From positions 159,358 to 223,357 of the IMG/VR virus record IMGVR_UViG_3300037725_000018: a stretch of DNA of 64,000 nucleotides, one strand, 5' to 3'. Position numbers and translations under genes: made by a program. Positions 252 to 17,367 of the stretch are shown piece after piece. The notes under the pieces were generated by a model. It was not told the DNA's origin, did not search any database, and saw only the letters and a program-made list of their open reading frames with translations. How positions within the stretch are numbered: the first letter of the stretch is position 1; the number at the start of each line of letters is the position of its first letter. The DNA comes from a virus.

Positions 252-431
252 ATGATTGTGCTTTACGAGTCTAGAAAAGAGTGGGGGGAAATCCGCGAAT
301 TTTCTGTTGGTCCCAACCCCACGATAGAGCTTCGGGGAGAAACGTGCTCGATTGAAAACTTAGGTGATAACATTACAACCGTCAAATTCAAAAAAATTAA
401 AATCAAGCGGGCCTTAAAAGAAATTTCATAA
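252..431 (+). CDS. MVVIFE-family small protein, first of array 1
   Basis: 59 residues beginning MIVLYESRKEW, the hallmark of the family: Met, four hydrophobic residues forming a predicted beta-strand, an acidic residue, then charged residues. A second hydrophobic stretch follows (TIELRGETCSIEN), and the C-terminus is a basic helix (KIKIKRALKEI). No Shine-Dalgarno sequence is visible. I chose the ATG at 252 because longer in-frame starts lack the N-terminal signature and run through the terminator. Function unknown. It stands slightly apart, separated from the main array by an unrelated gene. Confidence 0.7.
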   Translation: MIVLYESRKEWGEIREFSVGPNPTIELRGETCSIENLGDNITTVKFKKIKIKRALKEIS

Positions 432-514
432 AAAAGTAGGAACCGGGCTTTATTCTCCCTGTTAAAGCAAACGGAAAAAGAGGGAACCCTTTTCACCAAC
501 GAACCCTGTTTGCT

Positions 515-796
515 ATGAACGCCACGAAAGAAGAGATCCGCGAAAAGTTTTCTCTTCCGTCTGACAGTCGGGCAAGGAAGCTTCGGGACATGTTTTCGAA
601 GCACGTCACGTATCTGGACAAGAGCCTAAACCGGGCTTGGAAGGGTCCGGTCGAAGCGGTTGTGCCGAAAGAGAAGGCTAAAGACATGCGGGAAGCAATG
701 AGCTTCATCGGTGCTCATGTGGATAAGACCGAAAGCCTTCCGGGTGGCCGCGTTCGGCTTTACAGCCGGGGCTACTACGTTCACGTTGGGGCTTAA
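515..796 (+). CDS. Hypothetical protein, 93 aa
   Basis: Unrelated to the surrounding MVVIFE family. It is a basic, largely helical protein with an N-terminal helix containing ATKEEIREKFSLPS and an aromatic C-terminal strand ending RLYSRGYYVHVGA. A hairpin terminator follows within 35 bases, so it closes its own transcript. No family recognised. Confidence 0.6.
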   Translation: MNATKEEIREKFSLPSDSRARKLRDMFSKHVTYLDKSLNRAWKGPVEAVVPKEKAKDMREAMSFIGAHVDKTESLPGGRVRLYSRGYYVHVGA

Positions 797-830
797 ATGA
801 AGCGACAGCTTCCCATTCAAACCCGCAGGA

Positions 831-863
831 AGGCCCACAGGGGGAAACCTCTTGTGGGCCTTT
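831..863 (+). terminator. Intrinsic terminator
   Basis: 9-bp stem AGGCCCACA/TGTGGGCCT with a 13-nt loop and a short T tract. It ends the transcript of the 93-residue gene. Confidence 0.7.
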
Positions 864-953
864 GCCATACCCTTTTCGGTTCCGAAAACTTCTTAGAAAC
901 AATTGTGTGGACAGGCAATATCTACCAGTAGACAAAGAAAAATAACAAAGAAA

Positions 954-1175
954 ATGATTGCAGTTATAGTCTCGACGCCAAAAGACTACGGAGAAGCTTC
1001 AAAGCTTCGGATCTATCTTTCCGTTAATGACGTTTTTAAAGAAGGAAAAAAAGACTCCAAAGAAATTCAGGTTATTTCAACCCCAAATTTCACCCGAAAG
1101 CAAAACAACCAGATTGAAGAAAAGAGTTGGTTTAAAAATATAAGGTCTAAAAAAGAACAAGTAAAAAACCTTTAA
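954..1175 (+). CDS. MVVIFE-family small protein
   Basis: 73 residues beginning MIAVIVSTPKDYGEASKLRI. A central strand (EIQVISTPNF) is followed by a long basic tail. The ATG at 954 gives the family N-terminus. An earlier ATG at 903 would add an uncharacteristic polar leader and is less likely. It opens the continuous part of array 1, and the next gene starts 4 bases after its stop. Confidence 0.7.
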   Translation: MIAVIVSTPKDYGEASKLRIYLSVNDVFKEGKKDSKEIQVISTPNFTRKQNNQIEEKSWFKNIRSKKEQVKNL

Positions 1176-1179
1176 CGGC

Positions 1180-1332
1180 ATGATCATCATACTTAGCGAA
1201 ACAGAAGAAGAAGATTATAAAGTGGAAGAAGTATTTGAATATGGCCCCGCTTCTATGTCTTGGTATCTTACAGATGATGAAGTTTCGAGAGAAGAGATTA
1301 GACACATAAAAAAAGACCTAAAAACATGGTAG
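1180..1332 (+). CDS. MVVIFE-family small protein, 50 aa
   Basis: Starts MIIILSETEEEDYKVEEVFE, one of the more acidic members. The C-terminal half is a charged helix (EVSREEIRHIKKDLKTW). Its 3' end overlaps the next gene by 7 bases, which suggests translational coupling. Function unknown. Confidence 0.65.
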   Translation: MIIILSETEEEDYKVEEVFEYGPASMSWYLTDDEVSREEIRHIKKDLKTW

Positions 1333-1658
1333 TTTTCTTTGAATCAAAAACGGAATTTTCAAATGCGCTTTCGAACTCTACGTCCAAAAACACACTTCTT
1401 GATCTTTCGGTTCGCGTAAACGGTGTTAAGCTTTCGTACGCGGAACACGAAAAGACATACAAAAAACATGTAAGTCCCAAATCTTTAAAGTTAGCGCAGA
1501 AGCAGGGGACGGTATTTGGGCTTTCCGACGAAAAAAAGCGGCTTACTCTGTCCGGTGGAAAGCTTGTATACAATTCGGGTTCATTTGCACTTTCTTCTGC
1601 TTTGTTTTCAACGTTTAAGTCAATATCCGGCTCGCACAAAACTGGCAATATAATATAA
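1326..1658 (+). CDS. MVVIFE-family protein, long member with VNG motif
   Basis: 110 residues, the longest array member. It begins MVVFFESKTEFSNAL and has the sub-motif VRVNGVKLSY, then KHVSPKSL, matching the arrangement in the genes at 2015 and 11227 (VNG plus a hydrophobic-Pro motif). About 45 extra residues follow with a Ser-rich tail, so this copy may carry a C-terminal extension. The start overlaps the previous gene. Confidence 0.7.
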   Translation: MVVFFESKTEFSNALSNSTSKNTLLDLSVRVNGVKLSYAEHEKTYKKHVSPKSLKLAQKQGTVFGLSDEKKRLTLSGGKLVYNSGSFALSSALFSTFKSISGSHKTGNII

Positions 1659-1674
1659 CACAAGTTGAAAACCC

Positions 1675-1845
1675 ATGATTATCGTTGTGTCTGAAAATGA
1701 AAGAGATCGAAGAAGTCTTGTTGGCTTTCCTCTTCACAACAAGGGAGGATGCAAGCACGTACTAAACACAAAGCAATCTAAAGCCGCAAACTTGAAAAAG
1801 TCTATCGTGGCTAGAATTGAAATTGTGAACTTGCACGGTTGGTAA
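1675..1845 (+). CDS. MVVIFE-family small protein, 56 aa
   Basis: Begins MIIVVSENERDRRSLVGFPL. The centre contains HNKGGCKHVL, and the C-terminus is a basic helix then IEIVNLHGW. The sequence just before the ATG (TTGAAAACCC) recurs before other members, for example at 4101. Confidence 0.65.
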   Translation: MIIVVSENERDRRSLVGFPLHNKGGCKHVLNTKQSKAANLKKSIVARIEIVNLHGW

Positions 1846-1851
1846 AAGAAG

Positions 1852-2031
1852 ATGATTTTCATAATGTACGAAACAAAAAAAGAGCAGAGGCGTTCTTACA
1901 TTAACGCAAATGGAGAAGGTTTTTGTTTTTTTGGTTGGGAGGGAATGAAACTTTTGCCGGAAACAAAACTTAAAAGAATTGTAATCGAAAGGTTCAGAGA
2001 AGCTAGAGTGAAAAATGGTCGTCATTTTTGA
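1852..2031 (+). CDS. MVVIFE-family small protein, 59 aa
   Basis: Begins MIFIMYETKKEQRRSY. It carries the central hydrophobic-Pro motif GMKLLPETKL followed directly by a basic helix (KRIVIERFREARVK). The 3' end overlaps the next member by 17 bases in another frame. Function unknown. Confidence 0.65.
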   Translation: MIFIMYETKKEQRRSYINANGEGFCFFGWEGMKLLPETKLKRIVIERFREARVKNGRHF

Positions 2032-2260
2032 AACAGAAAAAGAAGTCGTTGACGCAATTTCATATAAAAACGTTCCCGCAAAGTGGGAAGTCAACGGAAA
2101 ACCAGTAGAGGCAAAAGAGGTTATCGTAATGCCAAATAACCTAACAAAAAATCACTTTCCCGCCCACAAACAAATTGTGAAACGAAATCTTCACGAAAAG
2201 CAAGAAGACCTCTCGATTCTAAAAAAAGTTTGGTCGTTTGCAGCGTCAATCTTCAACTAA
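2015..2260 (+). CDS. MVVIFE-family protein, VNG subgroup
   Basis: 81 residues beginning MVVIFETEKEVVDAI, close to the family consensus. Contains WEVNGKPVEAKEVIVMPNN, which holds both the VNG turn and the central hydrophobic-Pro motif. The C-terminus is longer than average. Its start lies inside the preceding gene. Confidence 0.7.
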   Translation: MVVIFETEKEVVDAISYKNVPAKWEVNGKPVEAKEVIVMPNNLTKNHFPAHKQIVKRNLHEKQEDLSILKKVWSFAASIFN

Positions 2261-2262
2261 AA

Positions 2263-2442
2263 ATGCCCATGCCCATAATCGTCGGAAAAAGAAAGGAGCT
2301 TAAAGAGGCTTACGTTATCCCAATGACACAAAGACAGTCCCGGACCTACAAATGGTTTAAGCATTCTGAAGTAAGAAATATGGGAACTAAGATGGTCAAG
2401 GAGTTAATCAGAGAAATATCATCTGAACTTAAAAGAAATTGA
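2263..2442 (+). CDS. Divergent MVVIFE-family protein
   Basis: 59 residues from the ATG at 2263, or 57 from the one at 2269, beginning MPMPIIVGKRKELKEAYVIP. The first strand is preceded by extra Met/Pro residues, but the central motif (AYVIPMTQ) and the helical basic end (MVKELIREISSELKRN) fit the family. It follows the previous stop by 2 bases. Confidence 0.6.
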   Translation: MPMPIIVGKRKELKEAYVIPMTQRQSRTYKWFKHSEVRNMGTKMVKELIREISSELKRN

Positions 2443-2452
2443 AACCCAAGTT

Positions 2453-2638
2453 ATGTTCATTGTATTTGAAAGCGAAAAAGAGCGAAAAGAAGCTGTAAAC
2501 ACCGACAAATCATCGGTTCGTTCATTTTGGATTGAGGAAGAAATGATTTCAATTAAAAACGTCATGCGGGTTTACAGTTGGGACAACATGCGGCTCGGAA
2601 AGTCTCAGGCACGCAAAAAAGTAGCACATAGGCTTTAA
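2453..2638 (+). CDS. MVVIFE-family small protein, 61 aa
   Basis: Begins MFIVFESEKERKEAVNTDKS. Central segment FWIEEEMISIKNVMRVYSW, then a basic C-terminal helix (GKSQARKKVAHRL). Sits 10 bases after the previous gene. Function unknown. Confidence 0.7.
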   Translation: MFIVFESEKERKEAVNTDKSSVRSFWIEEEMISIKNVMRVYSWDNMRLGKSQARKKVAHRL

Positions 2639-2645
2639 TAAGGAT

Positions 2646-2831
2646 ATGCAAATTATATTCGAGACGTACCTAAAATTTCAAGCTCACTCCACGCCGGAGC
2701 TTAGTTTTTCCGGCTTCAAGGTCGGGGAAGCAAGAGACGTGCCTTCCCGTTGCATCCATGTTAAAAACACAGACACGATCCGGTCTATAAAAAAGCGGCT
2801 TCGAAAAGGGCTCGCGCAAGGCAAAAATTGA
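2646..2831 (+). CDS. MVVIFE-family small protein, 61 aa
   Basis: Begins MQIIFETYLKFQAHSTPELS. Carries FKVGEARDVPSRCIHVKNTD and a strongly basic C-terminal helix (IKKRLRKGLAQGK). The segment before the helix resembles that of the gene at 4710 (VGEAKVPAFNVHVKR), so the two look like close paralogues. Last gene before a short cytosine-rich gap. Confidence 0.7.
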   Translation: MQIIFETYLKFQAHSTPELSFSGFKVGEARDVPSRCIHVKNTDTIRSIKKRLRKGLAQGKN

Positions 2832-2919
2832 CTTCCATATCGAGACCGGGTAGAGAAACGATTTCAAAAGACCTACCCCCCTTCAAATAACAAGTTCAAT
2901 TGACCCCCCCCCCTTAAGG
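2832..2919 (+). promoter_or_regulatory. Intergenic spacer with C tracts, possible regulatory element
   Basis: Contains a run of 6 C and a run of 10 C. The string ATATCGAGACCGGG recurs with one change at about 5120 (ATATTGAGACCGGG), and both are followed by ATTTCA and a C- or G-rich run. This suggests a shared element, but its role is unknown. Confidence 0.35.
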
Positions 2920-3081
2920 ATGGTTTTGATTGCACATTCGCATAAAGAACTTCAAATTGCAGTTAGAATGTCACACGACCTTCTTCTTGTTCACGATTCG
3001 GTTTTCTTTCCCCGCTCTTCATACTGGATTCGAAACAAAGAAAATATGCATCGGTTCATAAAAAGTGATTTGAAAGTGTAA
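2920..3081 (+). CDS. MVVIFE-family small protein, 53 aa
   Basis: Begins MVLIAHSHKELQIAVRMSHD. Centre LLLVHDSVFFPRSSYW has the hydrophobic-Pro motif, then a helix (KENMHRFIKSDLKV). The ATG lies just after the 10-C tract, so slippage there would affect the leader rather than the reading frame. Confidence 0.65.
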   Translation: MVLIAHSHKELQIAVRMSHDLLLVHDSVFFPRSSYWIRNKENMHRFIKSDLKV

Positions 3082-3098
3082 AGATTAGTAGTAACATC

Positions 3099-3308
3099 AT
3101 GGTTGTTGTATATACAAAGAAAACATTAAGGAAGATAGAATCAAAGGTCGTGGAAAAGTTTTTAGAAGAAGATGAGGACGCTTTTATTATGCCAGTGGAG
3201 CTTCCGGTGTTGAACTACAAGACGCAGCGGAGCATTGTCCAAAACGCGATTCAGTCTACGTCGTGGGAAGAATACACAAACCCTGAAATGCGACCTCAAA
3301 ACATATGA
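3099..3308 (+). CDS. MVVIFE-family small protein, 69 aa
   Basis: Begins MVVVYTKKTLRKIESKVVEK. Here the basic helix follows the first strand directly, then the central motif DAFIMPVELPVLNYKTQ and a second helix. Stop and next start share the bases ATGA (3305-3308), typical of translational coupling. Confidence 0.65.
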   Translation: MVVVYTKKTLRKIESKVVEKFLEEDEDAFIMPVELPVLNYKTQRSIVQNAIQSTSWEEYTNPEMRPQNI

Positions 3309-3487
3309 TCATTATCCTTCCAGAAAACGAAAAAGAACACGGGGCAGCTCTTTGGCGTCGGTGGGACAAAAATCCCAAGATACTTGTCCTTCCATACCGA
3401 ATGTCAAGTTTTCAAGGAGAAGGTGGGGCAGCCGTTTTCGGGAGGGTAAGGTTTCACGTAAAAGACAAACTAAGTAAAAAAGCATGA
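3305..3487 (+). CDS. MVVIFE-family small protein, 60 aa
   Basis: Begins MIIILPENEKEHGAALWRRW, with central motif KILVLPYRMSSFQ and a C-terminal strand/helix rich in Arg and Lys. It overlaps the genes on both sides by 4 bases. A different frame stays open here for 80 codons but lacks the signature and is rejected. Confidence 0.65.
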   Translation: MIIILPENEKEHGAALWRRWDKNPKILVLPYRMSSFQGEGGAAVFGRVRFHVKDKLSKKA

Positions 3488-3678
3488 TGGTTTTGATCTT
3501 TCAAGATGAAGAGTAAAGAAGTAAGGTTCTTGAGCAGCCCGGAGCAACCTTTTTTTCAAAAGTCAAATGCCACGACAAGAACATTAGAATTAAAGAAACG
3601 TGTGAATTTCTTCAAGGCAGGCTAAGAAACTCTAAAAAGCTGTCTAAACTTTTGAGGCTAAAAATTAAAACGGCTTAA
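3484..3678 (+). pseudogene. MVVIFE-family member broken by an in-frame TAA
   Basis: Two ATGs (3484 and 3487) open a family-like start, MMVLIFQDEE, then TAA at 3514-3516. The same frame continues without another stop to 3678 and looks coding (RSKVLEQPGATFFSK ... basic helix ending LRLKIKTA). The whole unit is 65 codons, normal family length. This is most simply a nonsense mutation in a formerly intact copy; readthrough cannot be excluded. Confidence 0.6.
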
Positions 3679-3686
3679 TAGAAGAA

Positions 3687-3881
3687 ATGCAAATCATCTT
3701 CAACGACATAGACGAAATCAAATCGTGCATCGAAGAGTCAATATATGCCAACTCGAAAACGCGCACCCTTAGAGGAACAAATGTTTCCATAAACGTTTGG
3801 GACATGTGGCACACCGATTATGTGCGAGCTAATGGAGCAGAGGTTATAAAAAAAGTTAGATCCAAATTGAAAGAAGAATGA
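3687..3881 (+). CDS. MVVIFE-family small protein, 64 aa
   Basis: Begins MQIIFNDIDEIKSCIEESIY. Contains RTLRGTNVSINVWDM, resembling the RGE turn of the first member at 252, then a basic helix (GAEVIKKVRSKLKEE). ATGA overlap with the next gene. Confidence 0.7.
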   Translation: MQIIFNDIDEIKSCIEESIYANSKTRTLRGTNVSINVWDMWHTDYVRANGAEVIKKVRSKLKEE

Positions 3882-4093
3882 TTATATACTTCGAACGTGG
3901 CGAAAAACAAAAAAGCCACCTGCGCGGCCTTTTTGGAAGGCAAAAGAAAACAGACCTTTCCTTCCACTTCGGAAAGATTGAAGACACAGACTGCTATTGG
4001 TATAACATTTCCGGAAACACAAAACGAAAAAGACCGGGTGAAGGTCTTAGAAGCAGAGAGCACTTAAAATTCATAACCGAAATTGCAATTTGA
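3878..4093 (+). CDS. MVVIFE-family small protein, 71 aa
   Basis: Begins MIIYFERGEKQKSHLRGLFG. An Arg/Lys-rich centre is followed by aromatic strands (DLSFHFGKIEDTDCYWYNI) and a C-terminal helix. It starts inside the stop codon of the previous gene. Function unknown. Confidence 0.65.
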   Translation: MIIYFERGEKQKSHLRGLFGRQKKTDLSFHFGKIEDTDCYWYNISGNTKRKRPGEGLRSREHLKFITEIAI

Positions 4094-4100
4094 AAACCCC

Positions 4101-4286
4101 ATGCATATACTTTTTGAGGACACACGCGAATTTAAAAAATACGACGGGACGTTTTATTACTTCAACGGTGGGCCGGAAATTTACGCGCATGAAGCAAGTG
4201 TTTTGACATACAGACGCAAAAAACTTACATTAGACAAACAAAAAAGAAAGCGCGTAAAAAAGAGGCTCAAAAAAAACATCGCATAA
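4101..4286 (+). CDS. MVVIFE-family small protein, 61 aa
   Basis: Begins MHILFEDTREFKKYDGTFYY and ends with a very basic helix (DKQKRKRVKKRLKKNIA). I prefer the ATG at 4101 to an upstream one at 4083 because only it puts the first strand at the N-terminus. The leader is TTTGAAAACCCC, as before the gene at 1675. Confidence 0.7.
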   Translation: MHILFEDTREFKKYDGTFYYFNGGPEIYAHEASVLTYRRKKLTLDKQKRKRVKKRLKKNIA

Positions 4287-4305
4287 CGGCGGCAGCAGGC
4301 AAAAA

Positions 4306-4491
4306 ATGGTTATTATAGTATCGGAAGAAAACACAAAACAAAAAACGTGGACGTTTTACGATAAAAATTTTTTTTCAGATCACAAGACGTGGTTTATCCC
4401 CACGGAGTCTTATGAAATAGAGCAAGGAGAAAGGTTCCCAAGCGTCCGGAGAAAAGCGAATACATCCCATATCATCAAGTCTCTTTCTTAA
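4306..4491 (+). CDS. MVVIFE-family small protein, 61 aa
   Basis: Begins MVIIVSEENTKQKTWTFYDK, then the central motif KTWFIPTESYEIEQGERFP and a short basic C-terminal helix. Separated by only 4 bases from a GTG-started neighbour. Confidence 0.7.
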   Translation: MVIIVSEENTKQKTWTFYDKNFFSDHKTWFIPTESYEIEQGERFPSVRRKANTSHIIKSLS

Positions 4492-4495
4492 ACCA

Positions 4496-4663
4496 GTGAT
4501 TATAGCAATTCCAGAATCCAAATTTGAGTGGCAAGTTTTCTATCAAGACTTACCTTTTAAAGATTTAAAAGTTGTCCCGGAACCCCGAATTTACGATAAC
4601 TACATAGAAATGTCAAGAAAAAGAACGGTTCTTTCGATAATAAAGGAACAAACAACTTCTTGA
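4496..4663 (+). CDS. MVVIFE-family small protein with GTG start
   Basis: 55 residues. The GTG at 4496 gives (M)IIAIPESKFEWQVFYQDL, then the central motif LKVVPEPRIYDN and a helix rich in Lys/Arg. The GTG is inferred from alignment with neighbours, since no ATG lies in a fitting position. Missed if only ATG starts above 60 codons are considered. Confidence 0.6.
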   Translation: MIIAIPESKFEWQVFYQDLPFKDLKVVPEPRIYDNYIEMSRKRTVLSIIKEQTTS

Positions 4664-4665
4664 AA

Positions 4666-4725
4666 ATGATCATCACGATTCCAGCGGAGAATAATAAAGA
4701 AAGAGAAAAATGGGAATGCTTGTAA
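4666..4725 (+). pseudogene. Truncated MVVIFE-family copy, 19 codons
   Basis: ATG at 4666 encodes MIITIPAENNKEREKWECL then stops. The N-terminus is a normal family start, but the central and C-terminal parts are missing. The next member begins inside it at 4710. It could be a relic left by deletion or recombination between adjacent copies, or a very short functional peptide. Confidence 0.45.
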
Positions 4726-4892
4726 TCTTTGAAAATTTTGAAGAAATGGACAAAGTTTCAAAACCGAAGGGAAAGTACGAGCTTGTCGGGGAAGCAAAAG
4801 TCCCCGCGTTCAACGTCCACGTCAAAAGAAACTTCAAACGCCCAAGCGTGTTTAGAAGAGAAATGAAAATAGCTGTGTTCTCTAAGTTGTAA
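4710..4892 (+). CDS. MVVIFE-family small protein, 60 aa
   Basis: Begins MGMLVIFENFEEMDKVSKPK; the second Met at 4716 may be the true start. Segment YELVGEAKVPAFNVHVKRN parallels the gene at 2646. Basic C-terminus. Last intact member before a decayed copy and a long spacer. Confidence 0.65.
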   Translation: MGMLVIFENFEEMDKVSKPKGKYELVGEAKVPAFNVHVKRNFKRPSVFRREMKIAVFSKL

Positions 4893-4894
4893 GA

Positions 4895-5056
4895 GCAAAA
4901 GCAATAAGACAGCCATCCCGACCACTTTTCCTTGGACATGATACAGACAAAGAGTATTACAACATCCGGTCACACAAACCCGAAAGCGGTTTATTAGTAG
5001 GTGGTTTGCATATAAACGGGGAAAAGCTTTCTAGCCATTGGATATATGTCAGGTGA
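4895..5056 (+). pseudogene. Start-less remnant of a VNG-type MVVIFE gene
   Basis: The frame ending at TGA 5054-5056 reads through HDTDKEYYNIRSHKPESGLL and GGLHINGEKLSSHWIYVR. The ING turn followed by a hydrophobic strand matches the VNG subgroup (genes at 1326, 2015, 11227). No ATG/GTG start or N-terminal strand is present, so the 5' part appears lost. Confidence 0.4.
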
Positions 5057-5431
5057 GTGAATGGAAGAAAGCCCCACACAAGGCAAATAAAACCTCACGT
5101 GAGGTAAAATATGGTTTTTATATTGAGACCGGGGCGAAAACCATTTCATTTTTACCGGGGGTACCGATTATAGCAAGTTATTTTTACCCCCACCCCCCTG
5201 TAGAATGTACACAGCCTTGTAGTAGATGGTAGAATGTACATGTGAATTCAAAAAGCCGTTTCAAAACGAAATGCAAAAGCTTCAATTCAAGACAAAGCAC
5301 ATGTAGTTTTTACCGTTTGCAGTTTTGGCATGGAATTTGCCTTCTGCGTCAAAACAAGACGTGTAGCTTTTACAAGGGAGGTGGGCGTTGGCATACAGTT
5401 TGCTTTAAAAAACCATAAACAGATAATTGGC
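5057..5431 (+). promoter_or_regulatory. 375-bp spacer with repeats and hairpin, likely regulatory
   Basis: No convincing gene. It holds a degenerate copy of the CCCCACACAAGGC hairpin (about 5073-5105, with CCTCACGTGAGG), the GAGACCGGGG element shared with 2832-2919, two 11-bp direct repeats TAGAATGTACA (5201-5211 and 5230-5240), and a duplicated promoter-like block ending just before the gene at 5432. Confidence 0.45.
5326..5403 (+). promoter_or_regulatory. Duplicated sigma-54-like promoter motif
   Basis: TGGCATGGAATTTGC (5326-5340) and TGGCATACAGTTTGC (5389-5403) each have GG-N10-GC spacing, the sigma-54 -24/-12 pattern. Both are preceded by TGTAG(T/C)TTTTAC, so a block of about 60 bp is imperfectly duplicated. 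The second copy lies 29 bases before the ATG at 5432. Sigma-54 use is inferred from spacing only. Confidence 0.4.
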
Positions 5432-5593
5432 ATGATTGTTGTTATCGAAAGAAGAGAAGACATAAACGGCTCCAGCCTTAAATTTTTTGATTCTGAAATA
5501 AGGCTAAAAGTAGGCAGGGCAGTTGTTCGTAGGTGGTGCCCGTCTGGGTGGCCTTTACGATACAAAAGAGAGTACATCCGAAAGCATATTTGA
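5432..5593 (+). CDS. MVVIFE-family small protein, 53 aa
   Basis: Begins MIVVIERREDINGSSLKFFD. The C-terminal half is Arg-rich and aromatic (VVRRWCPSGWPLRYKREYIR). An in-frame upstream ATG at 5330 would extend it through the promoter-like repeats and is rejected. First gene after the regulatory spacer. Confidence 0.65.
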   Translation: MIVVIERREDINGSSLKFFDSEIRLKVGRAVVRRWCPSGWPLRYKREYIRKHI

Positions 5594-5612
5594 AAACCAG
5601 TTGAAAAAAGAT

Positions 5613-5786
5613 ATGATCGTTATCCTTGTTGAAGAGAAGGCCAATTCTTTTAGCGTCGAAGACTTTGAAAAAGAAGTTGCAGTTATCCCAAGTGCAAAGG
5701 CGTACGTCTCTCTTTCGGTTCTTTCAAATGTTCAAGGGCTAAAGATGCGGAGGCGACATGTGGATAATGCCATTCGAAAGCTTTAA
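5613..5786 (+). CDS. MVVIFE-family small protein, last of array 1
   Basis: 57 residues beginning MIVILVEEKANSFSVEDFEK, with central motif EVAVIPSAKAYVSL and a basic helix (GLKMRRRHVDNAIRKL). The leader contains two TTGAAAA boxes. It faces the - strand block, from which it is separated by a terminator. Confidence 0.7.
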   Translation: MIVILVEEKANSFSVEDFEKEVAVIPSAKAYVSLSVLSNVQGLKMRRRHVDNAIRKL

Positions 5787-8638: not shown

Positions 8639-8812
8639 ATGATCGTCGTTATAGACAAAAAAGAAAGAGAAGACTTCGCTGCAACCAAGTTTCACAAGTT
8701 CGTAAACGTCCCTCCGGGTATGAGAAAAGACGTGGGGTGTCTTCATAACTTAGAAGACGGGTCCGGGCACCTTCTTCGGTTTGCAAAAGTTTTAGTCAAG
8801 TCTTACTTGTGA
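8639..8812 (+). CDS. MVVIFE-family small protein, first of array 2
   Basis: 57 residues beginning MIVVIDKKEREDFAATKFHK. Carries VNVPPGMRKDVGC and ends HLLRFAKVLVKSYL. The LRFAK helix links it to the subgroup at 8887, 9105, 9559 and 10001. Its ATG follows an A7 run; no Shine-Dalgarno sequence. Confidence 0.65.
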   Translation: MIVVIDKKEREDFAATKFHKFVNVPPGMRKDVGCLHNLEDGSGHLLRFAKVLVKSYL

Positions 8813-8886
8813 AAGAAAAAGCTGACGTGCGTGGTCCCCGTATACAATTTTTATTAGCCAATGCCAATGTCAATTTTTATCCGTTT

Positions 8887-9099
8887 ATGGTTGTTCTTAT
8901 TGAAACAAAAACAGAAGACGAAGAGTTTTACAATTACGTGTCCGGGATGCGGGTTTTGGTTTTGGGGACTTTTGAAACGGTCCCTTTATATCGAATACCG
9001 GATTTTGAAATTTTTAAGGTAGCCAAAACTGAAGGCTTCTGTGTAAAGGAGAATGGTCGGCTCACAATTCTTCATCACGGAATAGCAAAAGTGAGGTAA
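8887..9099 (+). CDS. MVVIFE-family protein, LRFAK subgroup
   Basis: 70 residues beginning MVVLIETKTEDEEFYNYVSG. The segment from LGTFETVPLYRIPDFEIFKV to ENGRLTILHHG matches the next gene almost position by position, showing a tandem duplication. The ATG at 8887 is preferred to 8809, which would add an unrelated 26-residue leader overlapping the previous gene. Confidence 0.7.
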   Translation: MVVLIETKTEDEEFYNYVSGMRVLVLGTFETVPLYRIPDFEIFKVAKTEGFCVKENGRLTILHHGIAKVR

Positions 9100-9104
9100 A
9101 AAAG

Positions 9105-9308
9105 ATGGTTCTTGTTTTCGAAGACGAAACAGAAAAAGAAAGGTTTGACAAACAGGTGTCCGAAACGGGCGTGGGAGTGTTTGGCCTTTTTGAAACCCTT
9201 TCTTTGTATAAAGAAAAAGCATTTAAGGTTCTTCGGTTTGCCAAAAGAGAAGGGCTAATTACAAGAGAAGACGGGCGTCTCATTTTAGTTTACTATGGAG
9301 TAGAGTAA
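9105..9308 (+). CDS. MVVIFE-family protein, LRFAK subgroup
   Basis: 67 residues beginning MVLVFEDETEKERFDKQVSE. Contains FGLFETLSLYKEKAFKVLRF and AKREGLITREDGRLILVYYG. Closest paralogue is the gene immediately upstream. The ending 'K-x-G-L/F, five residues, GRL plus strand' is the best-conserved C-terminal module in array 2. Confidence 0.7.
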   Translation: MVLVFEDETEKERFDKQVSETGVGVFGLFETLSLYKEKAFKVLRFAKREGLITREDGRLILVYYGVE

Positions 9309-9324
9309 AACGTAGGGAAAAAAG

Positions 9325-9549
9325 ATGGTTATTCTTGTTGAAAACAAAAGAGAAAAAACCCCTTTGAAAAAAGCGTGTGGGGGAAGAGTTGAAGACGAAT
9401 TTGAACTTTTAAAAGAGCGGATTCTGTTGCACGCGGGGCACTCGTCTCCGATGGATTTTCTAGTGTACATCAAAAAAAGGCTCCACTCTTGCCCAAGCAC
9501 CGGAAGACTTACCTGCGACATAACGCCAATACGTAACAACAAAAAATAA
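9325..9549 (+). CDS. MVVIFE-family small protein, 74 aa
   Basis: Begins MVILVENKREKTPLKKACGG. It has a central helix (VEDEFELLKERILLHAG) and a basic, Thr-containing tail. Less like its neighbours at the C-terminus. 16 bases downstream of the previous stop. Confidence 0.65.
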   Translation: MVILVENKREKTPLKKACGGRVEDEFELLKERILLHAGHSSPMDFLVYIKKRLHSCPSTGRLTCDITPIRNNKK

Positions 9550-9558
9550 CAGACAGTT

Positions 9559-9756
9559 GTGGTTGTTATCATTGAAGACTCGAAACTTGTTTCAGAAATT
9601 CAAGACTACTTCTCCGTCTGTTTAGAGGAAAATCTTGATGTGTATGAGCAGGTTTGGCTTTGCCGTGTGGATAGCAGCAAGCCGGAATATTTGCGTTTTA
9701 TGAAAAAACGCGGATTTGACAGGATAGAAGAGAACAAAAGAATGATTTTTAAGTAA
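9559..9756 (+). CDS. MVVIFE-family protein, LRFAK subgroup, GTG start
   Basis: 65 residues: (M)VVIIEDSKLVSEIQDYFSV, then DVYEQVWLCRVDSSKPEYLR and FMKKRGFDRIEENKRMIFK. The end fits the LRFAK/K-x-x-G-F pattern of the gene at 9105. GTG inferred from the family alignment. Confidence 0.65.
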   Translation: MVVIIEDSKLVSEIQDYFSVCLEENLDVYEQVWLCRVDSSKPEYLRFMKKRGFDRIEENKRMIFK

Positions 9757-9808
9757 GCATACGCAAGGGAAAAATTAGCTCCTTCATCAAAACTGCGTAA
9801 AGTGTGCA

Positions 9809-9994
9809 ATGATTGTTTTCGTTGTTGAAAGCACAGAAGGCAAGTCCGCGTTTTTTGATTTGACAAACAAAAACCGGAAAAACTTTGGAAGCGGCGTAAG
9901 CGTGGTTTTCTCTCATAAGTACGTCGGCTCCGGAACGGCCCGAGAATGCGCTTTGAAAGTCAAACAAAAGATCAAAAAATCCAAGCAAAAGTAA
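9809..9994 (+). CDS. MVVIFE-family small protein, 61 aa
   Basis: Begins MIVFVVESTEGKSAFFDLTN, with central GVSVVFSHKYVGSGTARECA and a basic helix (KVKQKIKKSKQK). Preceded by a 52-base gap, longer than usual for the array. Confidence 0.65.
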   Translation: MIVFVVESTEGKSAFFDLTNKNRKNFGSGVSVVFSHKYVGSGTARECALKVKQKIKKSKQK

Positions 9995-10000
9995 TGAGCC

Positions 10001-10186
10001 GTGGTTATCCTAATAGAAAGCAAAAAAGAGGAAAAAGAGCTTAATAACTTAGTGAGGAGTTCTGGTTTTGAACTTGACTTTCTTGAAAGACTTCCTGCCT
10101 TTTGGCACGTGCCGGAACTTTTGCTGCGTGACCTGAAAACGGTAGGTTTTAAAACAGAACAAAGGCGATTAAAATTTAATCGGTAG
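10001..10186 (+). CDS. MVVIFE-family protein, LRFAK subgroup, GTG start
   Basis: 61 residues: (M)VILIESKKEEKELNNLVRSS, then LDFLERLPAFWHVPELLLRD and LKTVGFKTEQRRLKFNR. The LERLPAF...VPE...LR pattern parallels FETVPLYRIPDFE in the gene at 8887. Confidence 0.65.
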   Translation: MVILIESKKEEKELNNLVRSSGFELDFLERLPAFWHVPELLLRDLKTVGFKTEQRRLKFNR

Positions 10187-10201
10187 TAACCGAATCAGCT
10201 A

Positions 10202-10396
10202 ATGATTGTCATTTTGAAAAACATACAGGAGGGCAGGCATTTAGAAAATGTTAAGGGGGTGGGTCCCAAAAGAGAAGAGGTCGTATACGAATATAGATAT
10301 GGGCCACGCCTGCGGGTTCAAATCCTAAGAGATTGCAGAAAAGGGGCAAAAGAAGGTGGGGAGCGGCTGAAAATTCCGGGCCGAATACGTCAGTAA
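10202..10396 (+). CDS. MVVIFE-family protein, paired paralogue 1
   Basis: 64 residues beginning MIVILKNIQEGRHLENVKGV. The central YEYRYGPRLRVQILRDCRKG and end KEGGERLKIPGRIRQ align with the next gene, so the two are recent duplicates. Very basic C-terminus. Confidence 0.7.
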   Translation: MIVILKNIQEGRHLENVKGVGPKREEVVYEYRYGPRLRVQILRDCRKGAKEGGERLKIPGRIRQ

Positions 10397-10412
10397 AAAC
10401 AGATATGTAAAT

Positions 10413-10613
10413 ATGATCGTCATTGCAAATAACTTAAATGAAGACCGTTGGATAGTGGGACACCCGAATATCGAAAGAAAAGAAATTGCCTACGTTTACG
10501 TGTGGACACGGGAAGAGAGGACCCGTCTTTTAAAAGACTTCAGGCGGGGGATAAAAAAGAGTGGCAAAAGGCTAAAAATGCCCGATCACATGGAAACAAG
10601 TAAAAAATGGTAA
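10413..10613 (+). CDS. MVVIFE-family protein, paired paralogue 2
   Basis: 66 residues beginning MIVIANNLNEDRWIVGHPNI. YVYVWTREERTRLLKDFRRG and KKSGKRLKMPDHM match the upstream paralogue. Slight overlap (7 bases) with an in-frame ATG upstream of the next gene, though that gene probably starts later. Confidence 0.7.
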   Translation: MIVIANNLNEDRWIVGHPNIERKEIAYVYVWTREERTRLLKDFRRGIKKSGKRLKMPDHMETSKKW

Positions 10614-10624
10614 AAACGCTTCCC

Positions 10625-10816
10625 ATGATATTCATCTTCAAAGAGTTTGAGTACTCAAACAACATTGACTTCTTTAAAGAGACGATTATTTCAAGCGACG
10701 GGTTGGTAAAGTCCGGTTCTGTCGTTGCCGATTCTCCCGGAACAATCCCTCTAACAAAGAGTTCATACAAAAAAATCAAAGAATACGTCAAAACCCGGTT
10801 GTCAAACAAACAGTGA
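10625..10816 (+). CDS. MVVIFE-family small protein, 63 aa
   Basis: Begins MIFIFKEFEYSNNIDFFKET. Contains SGSVVADSPGTIPLTKSSYK and a basic helix (KKIKEYVKTRLSNKQ). The ATG at 10625 is preferred to 10607 because the signature strand follows it directly. Stop overlaps the next GTG (GTGA). Confidence 0.7.
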   Translation: MIFIFKEFEYSNNIDFFKETIISSDGLVKSGSVVADSPGTIPLTKSSYKKIKEYVKTRLSNKQ

Positions 10817-10998
10817 TCATCATCGAAGAAAACATGTTTGAACAGAAGCTAACGTTTCCCATTCGGCTTGCCCCCGAAGAACGAGTAAGCCGAAAAGACG
10901 CTTTCTTAAACGGGTGTATCTCTGCGCTTACTTTGCATAACCCAAGTGAAGGCTGGACGAAAAGGCGGCTTTGTTTAATCACCGAACGTTACCAATAA
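10813..10998 (+). CDS. MVVIFE-family small protein, GTG start
   Basis: 61 residues: (M)IIIEENMFEQKLTFPIRLAP, then EERVSRKDAFLNGCISALTL and a basic end (GWTKRRLCLITERYQ). Translationally coupled to the preceding gene through the shared GTGA bases. Confidence 0.65.
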   Translation: MIIIEENMFEQKLTFPIRLAPEERVSRKDAFLNGCISALTLHNPSEGWTKRRLCLITERYQ

Positions 10999-11017
10999 CG
11001 AAACCCTTTGAAAAGAT

Positions 11018-11215
11018 ATGGTCGTTTGCTTTGAAAACGAAAATGAACTTGTTTCCAATACAACGATTCTTTTCGGGCGCAAGTCCGTAAACGGAATCAT
11101 TCTTGACCCTGAAGAAATTTGTATAGTCAAAAGACCGGATAATATCCATGCCCAAGTTGAAAAAAGCTTTTCGACCTGTCGCCTCACCTGTTTTGTAAAA
11201 AGTTCACGCACATAA
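11018..11215 (+). CDS. MVVIFE-family protein, VNG subgroup
   Basis: 65 residues beginning MVVCFENENELVSNTTILFG. RKSVNGIILDPEEICIVKRP places it with the genes at 1326, 2015 and 11227. Three Cys residues but no metal-binding spacing. Leader CCCTTTGAAAAGAT. Confidence 0.7.
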   Translation: MVVCFENENELVSNTTILFGRKSVNGIILDPEEICIVKRPDNIHAQVEKSFSTCRLTCFVKSSRT

Positions 11216-11226
11216 AAACCGGACTC

Positions 11227-11427
11227 ATGGTTGTCTATTTTGAAAAAAGAACGGAGTTTCTAAACCATTCACAATTCACAAATCGATTTCGAACAACAAT
11301 AACCGTTAACGGGCAGGTTCTTGTCAATTGCGAATATATCGTCTCGCCCAATAAAAAAGCGCCCCTTCAAATAAAAGAAAAGGACGTTCCTTTGTATCCG
11401 GGAACGCGCCTTGTTTTCGTTTTTTAA
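11227..11427 (+). CDS. MVVIFE-family protein, VNG subgroup, last of array 2
   Basis: 66 residues beginning MVVYFEKRTEFLNHSQFTNR. TTITVNGQVLVNCEYIVSPN aligns with the long member at 1326 (VFFESKTEF...VRVNGVKLSY...VSP), so arrays 1 and 2 share subgroups and probably one ancestry. Ends in a hydrophobic strand, RLVFVF, rather than a basic helix. Confidence 0.7.
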   Translation: MVVYFEKRTEFLNHSQFTNRFRTTITVNGQVLVNCEYIVSPNKKAPLQIKEKDVPLYPGTRLVFVF

Positions 11428-14018: not shown

Positions 14019-14032
14019 TGTCTTTGGGGGAT

Positions 14033-14262: not shown

Positions 14263-14290
14263 CAGGCGCTACTTGCTTTTTTGGTTTCTT

Positions 14291-14503: not shown

Positions 14504-14532
14504 AGCAGCTTTAACTTTTTTGTTTGCTTGAA

Positions 14533-14564
14533 GGGGCCTTTCCCCGTCTTGCGTGTGTGTAAAC
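14533..14564 (-). promoter_or_regulatory. Putative phage promoter element
   Basis: - strand TTTACACACACGCAAGACGG then GGAAAGG, upstream of the gene at 14291-14503. Confidence 0.4.
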
Positions 14565-14634
14565 CCACCGAAACCGGGGTTGTTTCGGTTTTGAATGTGA
14601 AGCGTCTGTGAAGGAAGGTTTCTTGGCAGACATA

Positions 14635-14671
14635 AAAAAGCGGGTCACGGAAAGCCCGTGACCCGCTTTTT
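14635..14671. terminator. Bidirectional terminator
   Basis: AAAAAGCGGGTCACGG/CCGTGACCCGCTTTTT, a 16-bp perfect stem with a 5-nt loop; T5 on both strands. Confidence 0.85.
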
Positions 14672-14690
14672 GGTTCTGTGTGGCTGACTT

Positions 14691-14993
14691 TTAGCTAAGA
14701 GAATCAAGGTAGCCGGAAAGAGCGCCAACCGAAAGCCGCTTGGACTCTCCGGTTTTCATGTCGCTAACCTTCACGCGACCGTCTTCTTTAACGGAAAGCA
14801 CGTAGCGGTCAAACTCTGCAATCGACCACCCGTGACGCTCTTCCCGAACGGTCGGGCCGAAAGAGATTCCCGTGACTTTAAGCTCGTCACGGCCAATCTT
14901 CTCCCCGGTGCTAATGTCCGGGTTGGTGTATCCGGCGCTGAAAAGCTTCTGGTTGGCTTTCCGGTAGATTTCGTTTTTGGCCTTGTCAGTCAT
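14691..14993 (-). CDS. Hypothetical protein, 100 aa
   Basis: Begins MTDKAKNEIYRKANQKLFSA. Contains KIGRDELKVTGISFGPTVRE, a beta meander FDRYVLSVKEDGRVKVSDMK, and ends LSGYLDSLS. The 'signal-like YRVSVKxDGRV' strand pair suggests a small beta domain. Function unknown. Confidence 0.6.
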   Translation of the reverse strand: MTDKAKNEIYRKANQKLFSAGYTNPDISTGEKIGRDELKVTGISFGPTVREERHGWSIAEFDRYVLSVKEDGRVKVSDMKTGESKRLSVGALSGYLDSLS

Positions 14994-15011
14994 GGGCTTT
15001 CTCTTTTGATG

Positions 15012-15044
15012 AGGGGTTTCCCTTCCTAAGTGCAATATGTAAAT
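15012..15044 (-). promoter_or_regulatory. Putative phage promoter element
   Basis: - strand TTTACATATTGCACTTAGGA then AGGGAAACC, upstream of the gene at 14691-14993. Confidence 0.4.
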
Positions 15045-15085
15045 GCGCTTTTATAGGAGCAGTTCCAAGCTCTCTTGTGAAGACT

Positions 15086-15397
15086 TTATGAAGACAGAGA
15101 GCTTTCAAGGTCTTCAATCACCATTTCAACGCGGCTTAAAACCGGGCTTTCCTTCTCTTCGGATACAGACGTTCGGTACATTTGTCCGGTCATTTCCATA
15201 AGCCTCTCGTACGCAAATCTAGACGGGCTTCCGTATGGAAACGTTTCCACGTCTTTCATGTCTTCTGCGTGAGCCGCCAAAACCTTGTACGTGGCCTTTA
15301 AGTCCGAATAGGTGCCACGGGTTATGATCGCCTCTTTTATCTTTCGAAAATGGCTTAGAAGGCGTTGTGCAACCTCTCGCTTGCGTTTGTCTTTCAT
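15086..15397 (-). CDS. Hypothetical helical protein, 103 aa
   Basis: Begins MKDKRKREVAQRLLSHFRKI. Mostly helical (YSDLKATYKVLAAHAEDMKD; RFAYERLMEMTGQMYRTSVS). I start it at 15397 because the longer frame to 15556 would read through the divergent promoter region. It is transcribed away from array 3. Confidence 0.6.
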   Translation of the reverse strand: MKDKRKREVAQRLLSHFRKIKEAIITRGTYSDLKATYKVLAAHAEDMKDVETFPYGSPSRFAYERLMEMTGQMYRTSVSEEKESPVLSRVEMVIEDLESSLSS

Positions 15398-15547
15398 GTC
15401 GGCTTGGTTTTGTTTTTCTAAAAGTAGAGTGAATGCGCGTACGTATACAAAAAGAAAAGGTCGGTGTTCCCGCCTTTTTTGGAACACACAAGGCCACCTG
15501 TTAGTTTGGGCCTCTTGTAGAAAGCCAACAAACAAAAAGCGAAACCG

Positions 15548-15748
15548 ATGATACAAGTTGTTGTGGATACAAGTGAAGAATCCGCTTGGATGCAGACGTT
15601 TTCAAAAGAGTTTCCAACTGAAGAAGTGGACTATTTTCATTCTGGTAAGGCAATGGAAGAGCTTGGGCTAGCCCCAATAGAAACCGGATATCGAATCTAC
15701 ATTTCAAATAAGCTTGAACACAGGTTTAAAGCGACAAAAAAGACATGA
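15548..15748 (+). CDS. MVVIFE-family small protein, first of array 3
   Basis: 66 residues beginning MIQVVVDTSEESAWMQTFSK. Acidic centre, then YRIYISNKLEHRFKATKKT as a strand plus basic tail. Stop and next start share ATGA. It sits downstream of a 150-bp divergent spacer. Confidence 0.65.
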   Translation: MIQVVVDTSEESAWMQTFSKEFPTEEVDYFHSGKAMEELGLAPIETGYRIYISNKLEHRFKATKKT

Positions 15749-15900
15749 CGATATTGATTGAAAAACCCAATGAGGCAAACCGTTTTTTAAACTTTAAGAT
15801 ACGGTCGGGTGAACGCATGATTGCAAAACCTAGTTCCCTCAAAAACAAAATTATTGCATTGCGCCAAATCAAAGAATCTGTAAGGGCCGAAAAGAAATGA
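15745..15900 (+). CDS. MVVIFE-family small protein, 51 aa
   Basis: Begins MTILIEKPNEANRFLNFKIR. Contains GERMIAKPSSLKNKIIALRQ, which has the central hydrophobic-x-Pro motif followed directly by the basic helix. Shares ATGA bases with both neighbours, forming a coupled trio. Confidence 0.65.
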   Translation: MTILIEKPNEANRFLNFKIRSGERMIAKPSSLKNKIIALRQIKESVRAEKK

Positions 15901-16121
15901 TCATCATTGAAAGACAAAGTCAAAAACGGTGGGAAGTTACGGTTCGCTCTGCAAAAAGGGAAGTTTTTACCAAAGAAACACATTCGGAAATGGGGGGTAG
16001 AATCGAAAAAAAGTATTCCGTCAAACATCAAGACTCCAATGTAAAAAGAGTCTTGCGCCACATGCTAAATAATTACGACCACGAATACTCTTTAGTTACC
16101 GCTAGCAGCTTCTTGAATTAG
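15897..16121 (+). CDS. MVVIFE-family protein, 74 aa
   Basis: Begins MIIIERQSQKRWEVTVRSAK. More basic than average, ending VKRVLRHMLNNYDHEYSLVT. The last 30 bases overlap, tail to tail, the metalloprotease gene on the other strand. Confidence 0.65.
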   Translation: MIIIERQSQKRWEVTVRSAKREVFTKETHSEMGGRIEKKYSVKHQDSNVKRVLRHMLNNYDHEYSLVTASSFLN

Positions 16122-16679
16122 TTCCTTGACAAATTCAACCCGAACGCTGTCAACGCCTGTTGGAACGCCAGCTTGAGACTTGTCAACTGCAGGAACCTCT
16201 TCGGTTCCCAAAGCTGCCGGGACGTAAGCTTGAAGAATAAAGGCGATTTGCTCGTGTGGACGCCTCATGTACCGGGAATTAAAATTAATATTGTCAACGG
16301 GAACGCCAAACATCTTGAACATAATCGGGGTTCTGTTTGCGATTTCAACAGAATCGGCTAAAAGTTTTGTGTCCATTTCCCCCGTGTTGTGGTGAAGAAG
16401 GTGAATGATCTCGTGGTTTAAAGTTTGGCTGTCCCGCCACTTTGCAAGAACGATTTCCCCCTCTTTGCGATACATACCCGCAATTGTGTTCTTTTCGTTG
16501 ATTTTGTCCAAAACTTCAACGGGAATGTCTTGCCCGATTTGGTTTTCCAAGGCCGAAAGAACCTCTTTTTCACCACGAGTGAGCCCGTGCCCGTTTTTTT
16601 TCTTATCTACGAACGTGAAGAGAAAGAAAAGGGTCAAAAACGAAATCAAAAAAGTGCGTGAAATTTTCATTGGCTTCAT
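16092..16679 (-). CDS. Membrane-anchored zinc metalloprotease (HEIIH)
   Basis: 195 residues. An N-terminal hydrophobic segment (about residues 6-24, TFLISFLTLFFLFTF) is a signal anchor, so the domain should face the periplasm or outside. HEIIH at 89-93 is the HExxH zinc motif, within LNHEIIHLLHH. Glu143 in RRPHEQIAF is a plausible third ligand, which would give a gluzincin-like site. No close family recognised. It could process an envelope or virion protein, or release a surface factor. Met at 16679 chosen; 16670 is also possible. It interrupts array 3 on the opposite strand. Confidence 0.65.
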   Translation of the reverse strand: MKPMKISRTFLISFLTLFFLFTFVDKKKNGHGLTRGEKEVLSALENQIGQDIPVEVLDKINEKNTIAGMYRKEGEIVLAKWRDSQTLNHEIIHLLHHNTGEMDTKLLADSVEIANRTPIMFKMFGVPVDNINFNSRYMRRPHEQIAFILQAYVPAALGTEEVPAVDKSQAGVPTGVDSVRVEFVKELIQEAASGN

Positions 16680-16764
16680 TTTTGCTGTTTGTGGAAAGAA
16701 ACTTTCTTTTGTCGTCTTTGTTACGTGAATAGACAAACGACGAAAAGGTTTCTTTTTTGCTTAT

Positions 16765-16941
16765 ATGATTTTTATTATCACCGAAGACCGAAACGAGTTT
16801 TTCGAAGCTTGTGGCATGTACCAACACAGGCACGCGCCAAGTGCTCTTGCCCAAGTGCTTCCGGACCACGTTGAAATCGCTTCCCTGCCATACAGAAACA
16901 AGTTTGCAATCAAAAAACACCTTTCAAAAACCCCAAAGTAA
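16765..16941 (+). CDS. MVVIFE-family small protein, 58 aa
   Basis: Begins MIFIITEDRNEFFEACGMYQ. Centre LAQVLPDHVEIASLPYRNKF has a hydrophobic-Pro motif twice, then a Lys-rich helix. Its start lies in the divergent spacer beside the metalloprotease. Confidence 0.65.
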   Translation: MIFIITEDRNEFFEACGMYQHRHAPSALAQVLPDHVEIASLPYRNKFAIKKHLSKTPK

Positions 16942-16943
16942 AC

Positions 16944-17228
16944 ATGTACGTAATAATTAGCGCCGAAGAAAAACGTAAGCTTTCAAAACAAAACTTCCTA
17001 TCCGGCCTAGAGTGGAGGCTGGACGTGCCTTCCTCAATTCGCGTAGTAAGAAATTTAAAGATAAACAGACAAAGAATCAAAGAAACCAAATCTGACATAG
17101 CAAGGCATTACCTCCGAAAAATGAAAACAGATAGAACTTGGATCACCGGAAGTTTAAAGGACAAAGAGGCGCTAGAGATCATTCAAGGCAAAAAGTTAAA
17201 AGACTGTCATGATCATTATTTTGTATAG
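16944..17228 (+). CDS. MVVIFE-family protein, 94 aa
   Basis: Begins MYVIISAEEKRKLSKQNFLS. RLDVPSSIRVVRNLKINRQR carries the Pro motif and the basic helix. About 35 residues of extra helix follow (LRKMKTDRTWITGSLKDKEA ...). Overlaps the next gene by 20 bases. Confidence 0.65.
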   Translation: MYVIISAEEKRKLSKQNFLSGLEWRLDVPSSIRVVRNLKINRQRIKETKSDIARHYLRKMKTDRTWITGSLKDKEALEIIQGKKLKDCHDHYFV

Positions 17229-17367
17229 AACAAATAAAGAGTGGGACGGAGTTCACGACGCTTTTAACACAGAAGCCTCTGACCCTTCCGAAGACTTGTT
17301 TATCATTCCGGATGAAAAAAGCCACTACTTTACCGCGAAACTAATTTTTGGCACAAAAAACGCTTGA
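17209..17367 (+). CDS. MVVIFE-family small protein, last of array 3
   Basis: 52 residues beginning MIIILYRTNKEWDGVHDAFN, with central DLFIIPDEKSHYFTAKLIFG. Short C-terminus. The ATG lies within the previous gene. It converges on the HNH gene. Confidence 0.65.
   Translation: MIIILYRTNKEWDGVHDAFNTEASDPSEDLFIIPDEKSHYFTAKLIFGTKNA

Follow-up and report, generated by a model that had tools for sequence, protein, structure and literature searches.

Large virulent phages such as T4 and SPO1 have early accessory regions with runs of tiny, non-conserved genes that are thought to serve host takeover. Most of these small genes bear no relation to one another, whereas the array considered here consists of some 40 with one N-terminal signature. 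The array lies on the plus strand within the last 64,000 bases (called the window from here on) of a 223,357-base virus record, IMG/VR record IMGVR_UViG_3300037725_000018, positions 159,358 to 223,357. Small accessory genes are known to expand in viruses; about 40 copies in 17 kb, so divergent around a fixed start of 20 residues, are in my judgement unusual.

Another expansion of small viral genes is that of the anti-CRISPR AcrID1. In a study of rudiviruses (PMC11065993), 26 of 35 AcrID1 homologues are found close together in four viruses, a clustering that its authors interpret as duplication that may have brought functional diversification; most anti-defence proteins predicted in rudiviruses are described there as lacking a homologue in the databases. 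The array resembles the case of rudiviruses SIRV1-3 in that several small paralogues stand side by side in one virus. It differs in that rudiviruses are archaeal viruses whose AcrID1 genes stand singly and share an early promoter sequence, while the genes of the array form operon-like runs that have no more than A-rich leaders in common. The AcrID1 copies, moreover, are recognisable homologues, whereas in the array this holds for the first 20 residues alone, and AcrID1 is an inhibitor of CRISPR, whereas the proteins of the array are not known to have inhibitor activity. The array may work like an expansion of the AcrID1 type; I claim membership neither in that family nor in any other.

The array and its common N-terminus

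Forty small plus-strand open reading frames (ORFs), taken from lists of ORFs, make up the three clusters in Table 1, and the set used for alignment, 48 window ORFs, adds to these eight minus-strand candidates from elsewhere in the window. Scored by the codon usage of long phage genes, the annotated frame ranks first of the six in 38 of the 40 members, the exceptions being 10202-10396 and 15745-15900. The array of small coding genes is therefore real, close in number to the roughly 42 plus-strand genes of the initial annotation. Their reported size, mostly 50 to 75 codons, also stands (50-74 amino acids in 43 of the 48 aligned ORFs). Genes within clusters are separated by less than 20 nucleotides (nt) at 29 of 37 junctions. 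They were said to overlap often by ATGA or GTGA: overlaps do exist, at 8 of the 37 junctions, but only 5 are of this 4-nt type, and "often" has to be corrected.

Table 1. Positions of the array, its duplicated parts and its minus-strand lookalikes, counted from the first base of the window.
Feature	Position	Strand	Description	Basis
Cluster 1	252..5786	+	21 small ORFs with the N-terminal signature, starting at 252, 954, 1180, 1326, 1675, 1852, 2015, 2263, 2453, 2646, 2920, 3099, 3305, 3687, 3878, 4101, 4306, 4496, 4716, 5432, 5613; three gaps >100 nt (432-953, 3488-3686, 4893-5431)	ORF lists, alignment, coding potential, motif control
ORF in a gap of cluster 1	515-796		Inside the gap 432-953; without the signature	
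Cluster 2	8639..11427	+	13 small ORFs, starting at 8639, 8887, 9105, 9325, 9559, 9809, 10001, 10202, 10413, 10625, 10813, 11018, 11227; intergenic gaps of -4 to 74 nt	ORF lists, alignment, coding potential
Cluster 3	15548..17367	+	6 small ORFs, starting at 15548, 15745, 15897, 16765, 16944, 17209; interrupted by a 643-nt gap containing minus-strand ORF 16092-16736; two overlaps of 4 nt, one of 20 nt	
Tandem duplicates	8887-9099 / 9105-9308 (span 8887..9308)	+	40% identity	E = 5.9e-12 from residue 10 on; z = 14.9
Tandem duplicates	10202-10396 / 10413-10613 (span 10202..10613)	+	35% identity	E = 1.1e-8 from residue 10 on; z = 11.1
54-nt direct repeat	9084-9137 and 9304-9357	+	78% identity	Repeat search
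Adjacent members	57464-57637 and 57266-57460 (span 57266..57637)	-	Members on the minus strand	Held-out profile, background fractions 0.000 and 0.001
Lookalikes	43235-43435, 44822-45064, 45078-45326, 46397-46597	-	Membership unsupported	Background fractions 0.32, 0.34, 0.086, 0.084
Lookalikes	61893-62111, 63421-63624	-	Membership unsupported	Background fractions 0.036, 0.40

The signature consists of Met, four to five mostly hydrophobic residues and then, often, an acidic residue, as had been described. A strict form of it, M[VI]hhh(x)[ED], was counted in ORFs of 45-120 amino acids on both strands of window positions 1-17400. There are 22 matches, whereas 40 dinucleotide shuffles average 0.075 and never exceed 1, and this comparison is free of any circularity arising from the selection of members. 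The remainder of the window has 3, against 0.2 in shuffles. Counted by gene, the strict form occurs in 22 of the 40 members and in none of 57 other window genes, nor in any of these when each in-frame ATG, GTG or TTG is tried as the start (the controls are longest ORFs, six of which begin with TTG). A looser form finds 38 of the 40 members and 5 of the 57 controls, a contrast that is partly circular, the members having been chosen with a similar loose pattern. The common N-terminus goes far beyond chance, and the statistics behind it are very strong, those behind the rest of the initial annotation weaker.

Codon counts from the alignment show that the N-terminal Val, Ile and Phe residues are encoded by a mixture of codons. 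Usage for Ile matches that in the gene bodies (p = 0.55), and that for Val shows a mild bias toward GTT (p = 0.02). The mixture indicates that the signature is mainly a feature of the protein, with selection acting mainly at that level, and not a DNA element.

The other end of the proteins is basic, in line with the Lys/Arg-rich ends that had been attributed to most of them: the last 25 residues have a mean net charge of +3.7, as compared to -1.2 in the controls (p = 1.3e-10), and are net positive in 36 of the 40 members but only 17 of the 57 controls. A hydrophobic-x-Pro motif was also said to be carried by many. The motif is present, in the form hydrophobic-x-hydrophobic-Pro, but "many" is too strong for 8 of 40 members, given 3.9 in shuffles and 34 of 1000 shuffles that reach 8; a narrower form is found in 4 of 40, as compared to 0.4.

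How far the likeness reaches

The two pairs of tandem duplicates are alike along their whole length. The differences at codon positions 1, 2 and 3 number 31, 17 and 32 in the pair 8887/9105 and 30, 26 and 39 in the pair 10202/10413, position 2 being the least changed in both but clearly so only in the former. The direct repeat covers 21 nt upstream and the first 11 codons of genes 9105 and 9325. Neighbours are somewhat more alike after residue 9 than are distant genes (mean z of 1.40 over 39 pairs, as compared to 0.38 over 595 pairs at least 6 apart), an excess that is due largely to the two clear duplicate pairs.

For comparisons of all against all, the 48 window ORFs were joined by eight lookalikes found in two other parts of the record, giving 56 sequences. 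When only residues after 9 are considered, 2 of the 1540 pairs reach E<0.01, both of them adjacent genes, with 0 to 2 in ten shuffled sets; at E<1 there are 111 pairs, against 68-96. In a seven-fold cross-validation that kept the first nine residues, true bodies exceeded their own shuffles by a mean of 2.5 bits, and the held-out profile anchored at the N-terminus gives p = 1.4e-6 (n = 56), placing 18 of the 56 in the top 5%. When the test was repeated with the 48 window ORFs, true bodies also beat segments of other phage proteins (p = 1.7e-7). Shuffling residues 10-20 alone costs the held-out profile 1.6 bits (p = 2.9e-5). Since this loses bits, and shuffling everything beyond residue 20 loses nothing, the detectable homology is confined to residues 1-20, the two duplicate pairs excepted.

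Measured against 753 background ORF starts, 14 of the 48 held-out ORFs score above all of them, 13 of these among the 40 on the plus strand, and 19 of the 48 lie in the top 1% (17 of 40 on the plus strand, 2 of 8 on the minus strand). The two on the minus strand are the adjacent ORFs 57266-57460 and 57464-57637; where about nine minus-strand members had been proposed, the held-out profile links these two, and the other six candidates are unsupported. A search of the whole record with a profile of 27 rows yielded 24 places at E<=10, each identified by its coordinates as a training row, and none of eight lookalikes elsewhere in the record, chosen by eye, was matched. The check suggested by the initial annotation, that a hidden Markov model should link the members and that their folds should agree, therefore has a mixed outcome: some members are linked, 13 of the 40 topping all background, but the whole-record search added none, and the two fold models described below, which differ in their C-terminal halves, are too weak to settle the matter. 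Much the same may be said of the single family of paralogues that it proposed. A gene set with a common N-terminal signature is supported, but homology past residue 20 was not found, and over their full length the genes are a candidate paralogous family, whose common descent I infer.

Relatives, models and neighbouring sequence

The INPHARED collection gave no confirmed relative at the level of DNA, and a tblastn search of it with two members gave nothing at E<=10 for one and a best E of 4 for the other. Scans of IMG/VR with short peptides (an alignment of four members, and two single members) yielded no confirmed relative; in one of them, 17 stretches fit the peptide pattern of the N-terminus, but not one of these could be confirmed. 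A scan of GTDB contigs with one member likewise found no confirmed relative, and a scan with a protein from outside the family found no relative either. The family profile matched none of 18 viral records (LR756508.1, PP395634.1 and 16 of 22 IMG/VR records, several of which look like near-copies of one another), a result that bears only on close relatives of the members, since the profile matches its own genome only on training rows. The strict N-terminal motif occurs once in each of 5 of 24 loci (L004-L027) and is absent from the other 19; the five are L011, L013 and L014, which are alike, and L015 and L023, which are also alike.

The phage itself has relatives. The 484-kb uncultured phage LR756508.1 is, to judge from its proteins, a distant one: homologous proteins are common to the two, the four compared being 37% and 33% identical by tblastn and 72% and 45% by alignment, but no match to the family profile is found in its 484 kb. 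Microcystis phage Mel-JY01 and one IMG/VR contig are further distant relatives, and 21 IMG/VR loci share an RNA-ligase-like protein at 24-34%.

Structures were predicted for two members, 2015 and 9105, by AlphaFold2 with alignments of paralogues. The model of 2015 (predicted local distance difference test, pLDDT, 75.4; predicted template modelling score, pTM, 0.33) has a helix at 8-16, strands at 23-26 and 29-32, and a helix at 48-80, and that of 9105 (pLDDT 66.3, pTM 0.38) has helices at 8-21 and 39-48 and strands at 52-55 and 58-61. Such confidence is too low to call the two folds alike or different. Foldseek returned no match at E<=0.001 from BFVD (2015 model only) or from the PDB (both models), and of two alignments searched against the PDB as sequence profiles, one gave a single match (E 0.93) and the other gave none. 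Thioredoxin-like rows for the 9105 model are weak (best E 0.95, probability 0.13) and are not used as evidence.

The gene set thus looks new, as had been proposed, in that no relative was found in the libraries, the 18 viral records or the fold searches used, although the nearest relatives of this record may be missing from these collections. Among the papers listed by literature searches, none points to such an array in its title or the start of its abstract, which does not prove its absence from print.

A 4-base Shine-Dalgarno core precedes 1 of the 40 members and 3 of 38 other long genes, so the lack of such cores is general in this phage, and on these counts the common start was judged not to stem from a Shine-Dalgarno or shared promoter element. 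Start codons are instead preceded by A-rich leaders, perhaps a sign of a host whose translation starts are of that kind, and words enriched in the 60 bases before them are A-rich (GTAAAA, AAAAGT, AAAAAT, AAACCC and TTGAAA among them). Over positions 1-18000 there are 29 sigma-70-like sites, as compared to 18.9 (standard deviation 4.4) in shuffles, and 41 terminator-like sites, as compared to 24.7 (standard deviation 5.2); both are mild excesses over the stretch as a whole. A two-part promoter pattern like that of Bacteroidota has a single occurrence in the window, at 8633 on the minus strand. No match to Rfam at the gathering threshold was found in 1-18000.

Several other features lie among the clusters. 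Some 530 bases ahead of cluster 2 (8107-8638) contain short repeats and only overlapping mechanical ORFs, with no Rfam match. A 24-nt stretch with the core CCCCACACAAGGC is present in three copies (5065-5088, 5853-5876 and 11503-11526), the first two within hairpins that are terminator-like sites of the minus strand. A hairpin-forming 54-nt repeat (6219-6272 and 6585-6638, 89% identical) lies close to where two minus-strand ORFs have their upstream ends. The minus strand has a second population of small genes, at 5921-7819 and 11572-15035, opposite in charge to the plus-strand array: 15 longest ORFs there average -3.1 net, as compared to +3.4.

The rest of the window carries the genes of a tailed phage. 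Proteins of very large size that read like tail fibres are encoded in 18626-38266; there is an exonuclease (PHROGs, E 3.7e-21) and a thymidylate synthase with tblastn matches in 3785 phage records, all below 60% identity. In the 20 kb upstream are ORFs that, as read from their translations and not by search, resemble a Clp-type ATPase, DnaJ, RNA ligase and dCMP deaminase. A set of sialic-acid genes is found on the minus strand at 53798-56779, comprising NeuB (Pfam E 2.2e-53), a cytidylyltransferase (E 1.2e-7) and a sialyltransferase of family 29 (E 4.1e-29). Animals are the best-known source of this type, and five places in LR756508.1 are similar to the sialyltransferase; ORF 55441-56082, from a reading of its letters, seems to be of the same set. 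A minus-strand ORF of 262 amino acids (48836-49624) reads as a protein interrupted by an intein, with a Hint-like stretch ending in VTITGN followed by S, a reading of the letters alone, the ORF having no Pfam match at E<=0.01.

Origin and possible role

The explanation I favour, at a probability of roughly 0.45, is that the array encodes small proteins, tandemly expanded and fast diverging, that serve host takeover or counter-defence, in line with a guess of the initial annotation. A large tailed phage would carry some 40 small, mostly basic proteins (50-110 amino acids) in three packed, operon-like runs that arose by tandem duplication, to which the two clear adjacent pairs and the 54-nt repeat common to the starts of two adjacent genes point. 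Duplication would have been followed by very fast divergence of the bodies around a constrained start, a unit of about 20 N-terminal residues forming a short hydrophobic strand, usually with an acidic or polar end, and then the start of a helix, while the remainder drifted past recognition, mostly staying basic toward the C-terminus. The strand-helix start would most probably be a structural or docking core, that is, a shared fold nucleus, the face of a homodimer or the site of a common partner, and the variable remainder of each protein would engage a different host component, a nucleic-acid machine or a defence protein. Fast divergence of bodies around a constrained start fits proteins aimed at varying host targets. 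The phage would in this way possess an arsenal for host takeover and counter-defence, probably made early, as operons.

A number of results weigh against this explanation. A profile of the bodies alone sees no signal in the same cross-validation (p = 0.47), and with residues 1-20 kept and the remainder shuffled the held-out profile shows none past residue 20 (0.3 bits, p = 0.81). The 27-row profile, run over the whole record, missed all 21 other listed window ORFs and had no match in bases 1-159357. A motif trained by expectation-maximization (EM) on the region after residue 20 did not transfer, relative to shuffles, from cluster 1 to clusters 2 and 3 (p = 0.49) and did so weakly in the other direction (p = 0.03); it scores higher than in control C-termini both ways (p = 0.004 and 4e-5), for which basic composition alone could suffice. 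The isoelectric point (pI) is below 7 in 10 of the 40 members, and an acidic residue at position 10 is found in 22 of the 40 but also in 18 of the 57 controls. In both models, residues 1-7 have neither a strand nor a strand partner in the monomer, the helix beginning at residue 8, and the order of C-terminal elements differs between these two weak models. Finally, 31 of the 48 window ORFs were scanned against Pfam, PHROGs and PADLOC with no convincing match, the best, each in a single member, being E 0.016, 0.0055 and 0.0046, respectively.

Some of these results bear on whether the common start belongs to the bodies at all. A portable N-terminal tag of 20 residues, recombined onto unrelated small effectors for docking to one common partner, localisation or stability, would account for a profile signal limited to residues 1-20, for a DNA repeat that, in 9105 and 9325, does not reach beyond the upstream region and the initial 11 codons, for bodies at chance level save in two pairs, and for the absence of a strand from the first seven residues of either monomer model. 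The codons of the first five positions are nonetheless diverse, so there has been no recent spread of a single DNA cassette; the C-termini are basic in 36 of 40, as unrelated bodies need not be; and the two clear pairs are alike over their whole length. I consider such a tag unlikely.

The basic C-terminal parts (mean +3.7 over the last 25 residues) might instead mark small proteins of one fold that bind nucleic acid or the ribosome and act on phage or host DNA or RNA, not on defence. A helix-like pattern, [IV][KR][KRDES]x[LIF][KRHS], would suit them, present in 13 of 40 members (shuffles, 1.1) and within the C-terminal 30 residues of 2 of 57 controls, but it was picked from the alignment after the fact and is given no weight, since the unbiased cross-cluster search transfers poorly and in one direction failed. 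With no convincing match to a fold or family, with the ten members of pI below 7, and with forty different copies that one housekeeping role hardly explains, this alternative is about as doubtful as that of the tag.

Less likely again is a modular arsenal of effectors, in which some 40 proteins with unrelated bodies would dock through a 20-residue strand-helix to one common hub, of the host or of the phage. Polymorphic toxins and secreted effectors with a shared N-terminus follow the same logic, which would here be played out within one phage's operons.

Least probable of all is a nursery of near-neutral duplicated ORFs whose N-terminus is kept only for expression without Shine-Dalgarno signals, for although just one member has the 4-base core and most retain little mutual similarity, the other genes are also mostly without cores (3 of 38 have one) and yet none of 57 has the strict motif, reading frames and codon usage are preserved in 38 of 40 members, and codon position 2 changes least in both duplicate pairs, clearly so in the first only.

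Phages hold large stocks of small uncharacterised proteins that disarm bacteria. About 40 members with one N-terminal signature, in a single genome, amount to a ready-made library, and cloning its members and testing them in parallel would reveal whether a single scaffold has come to act on many host targets, and what purpose the constant start serves.

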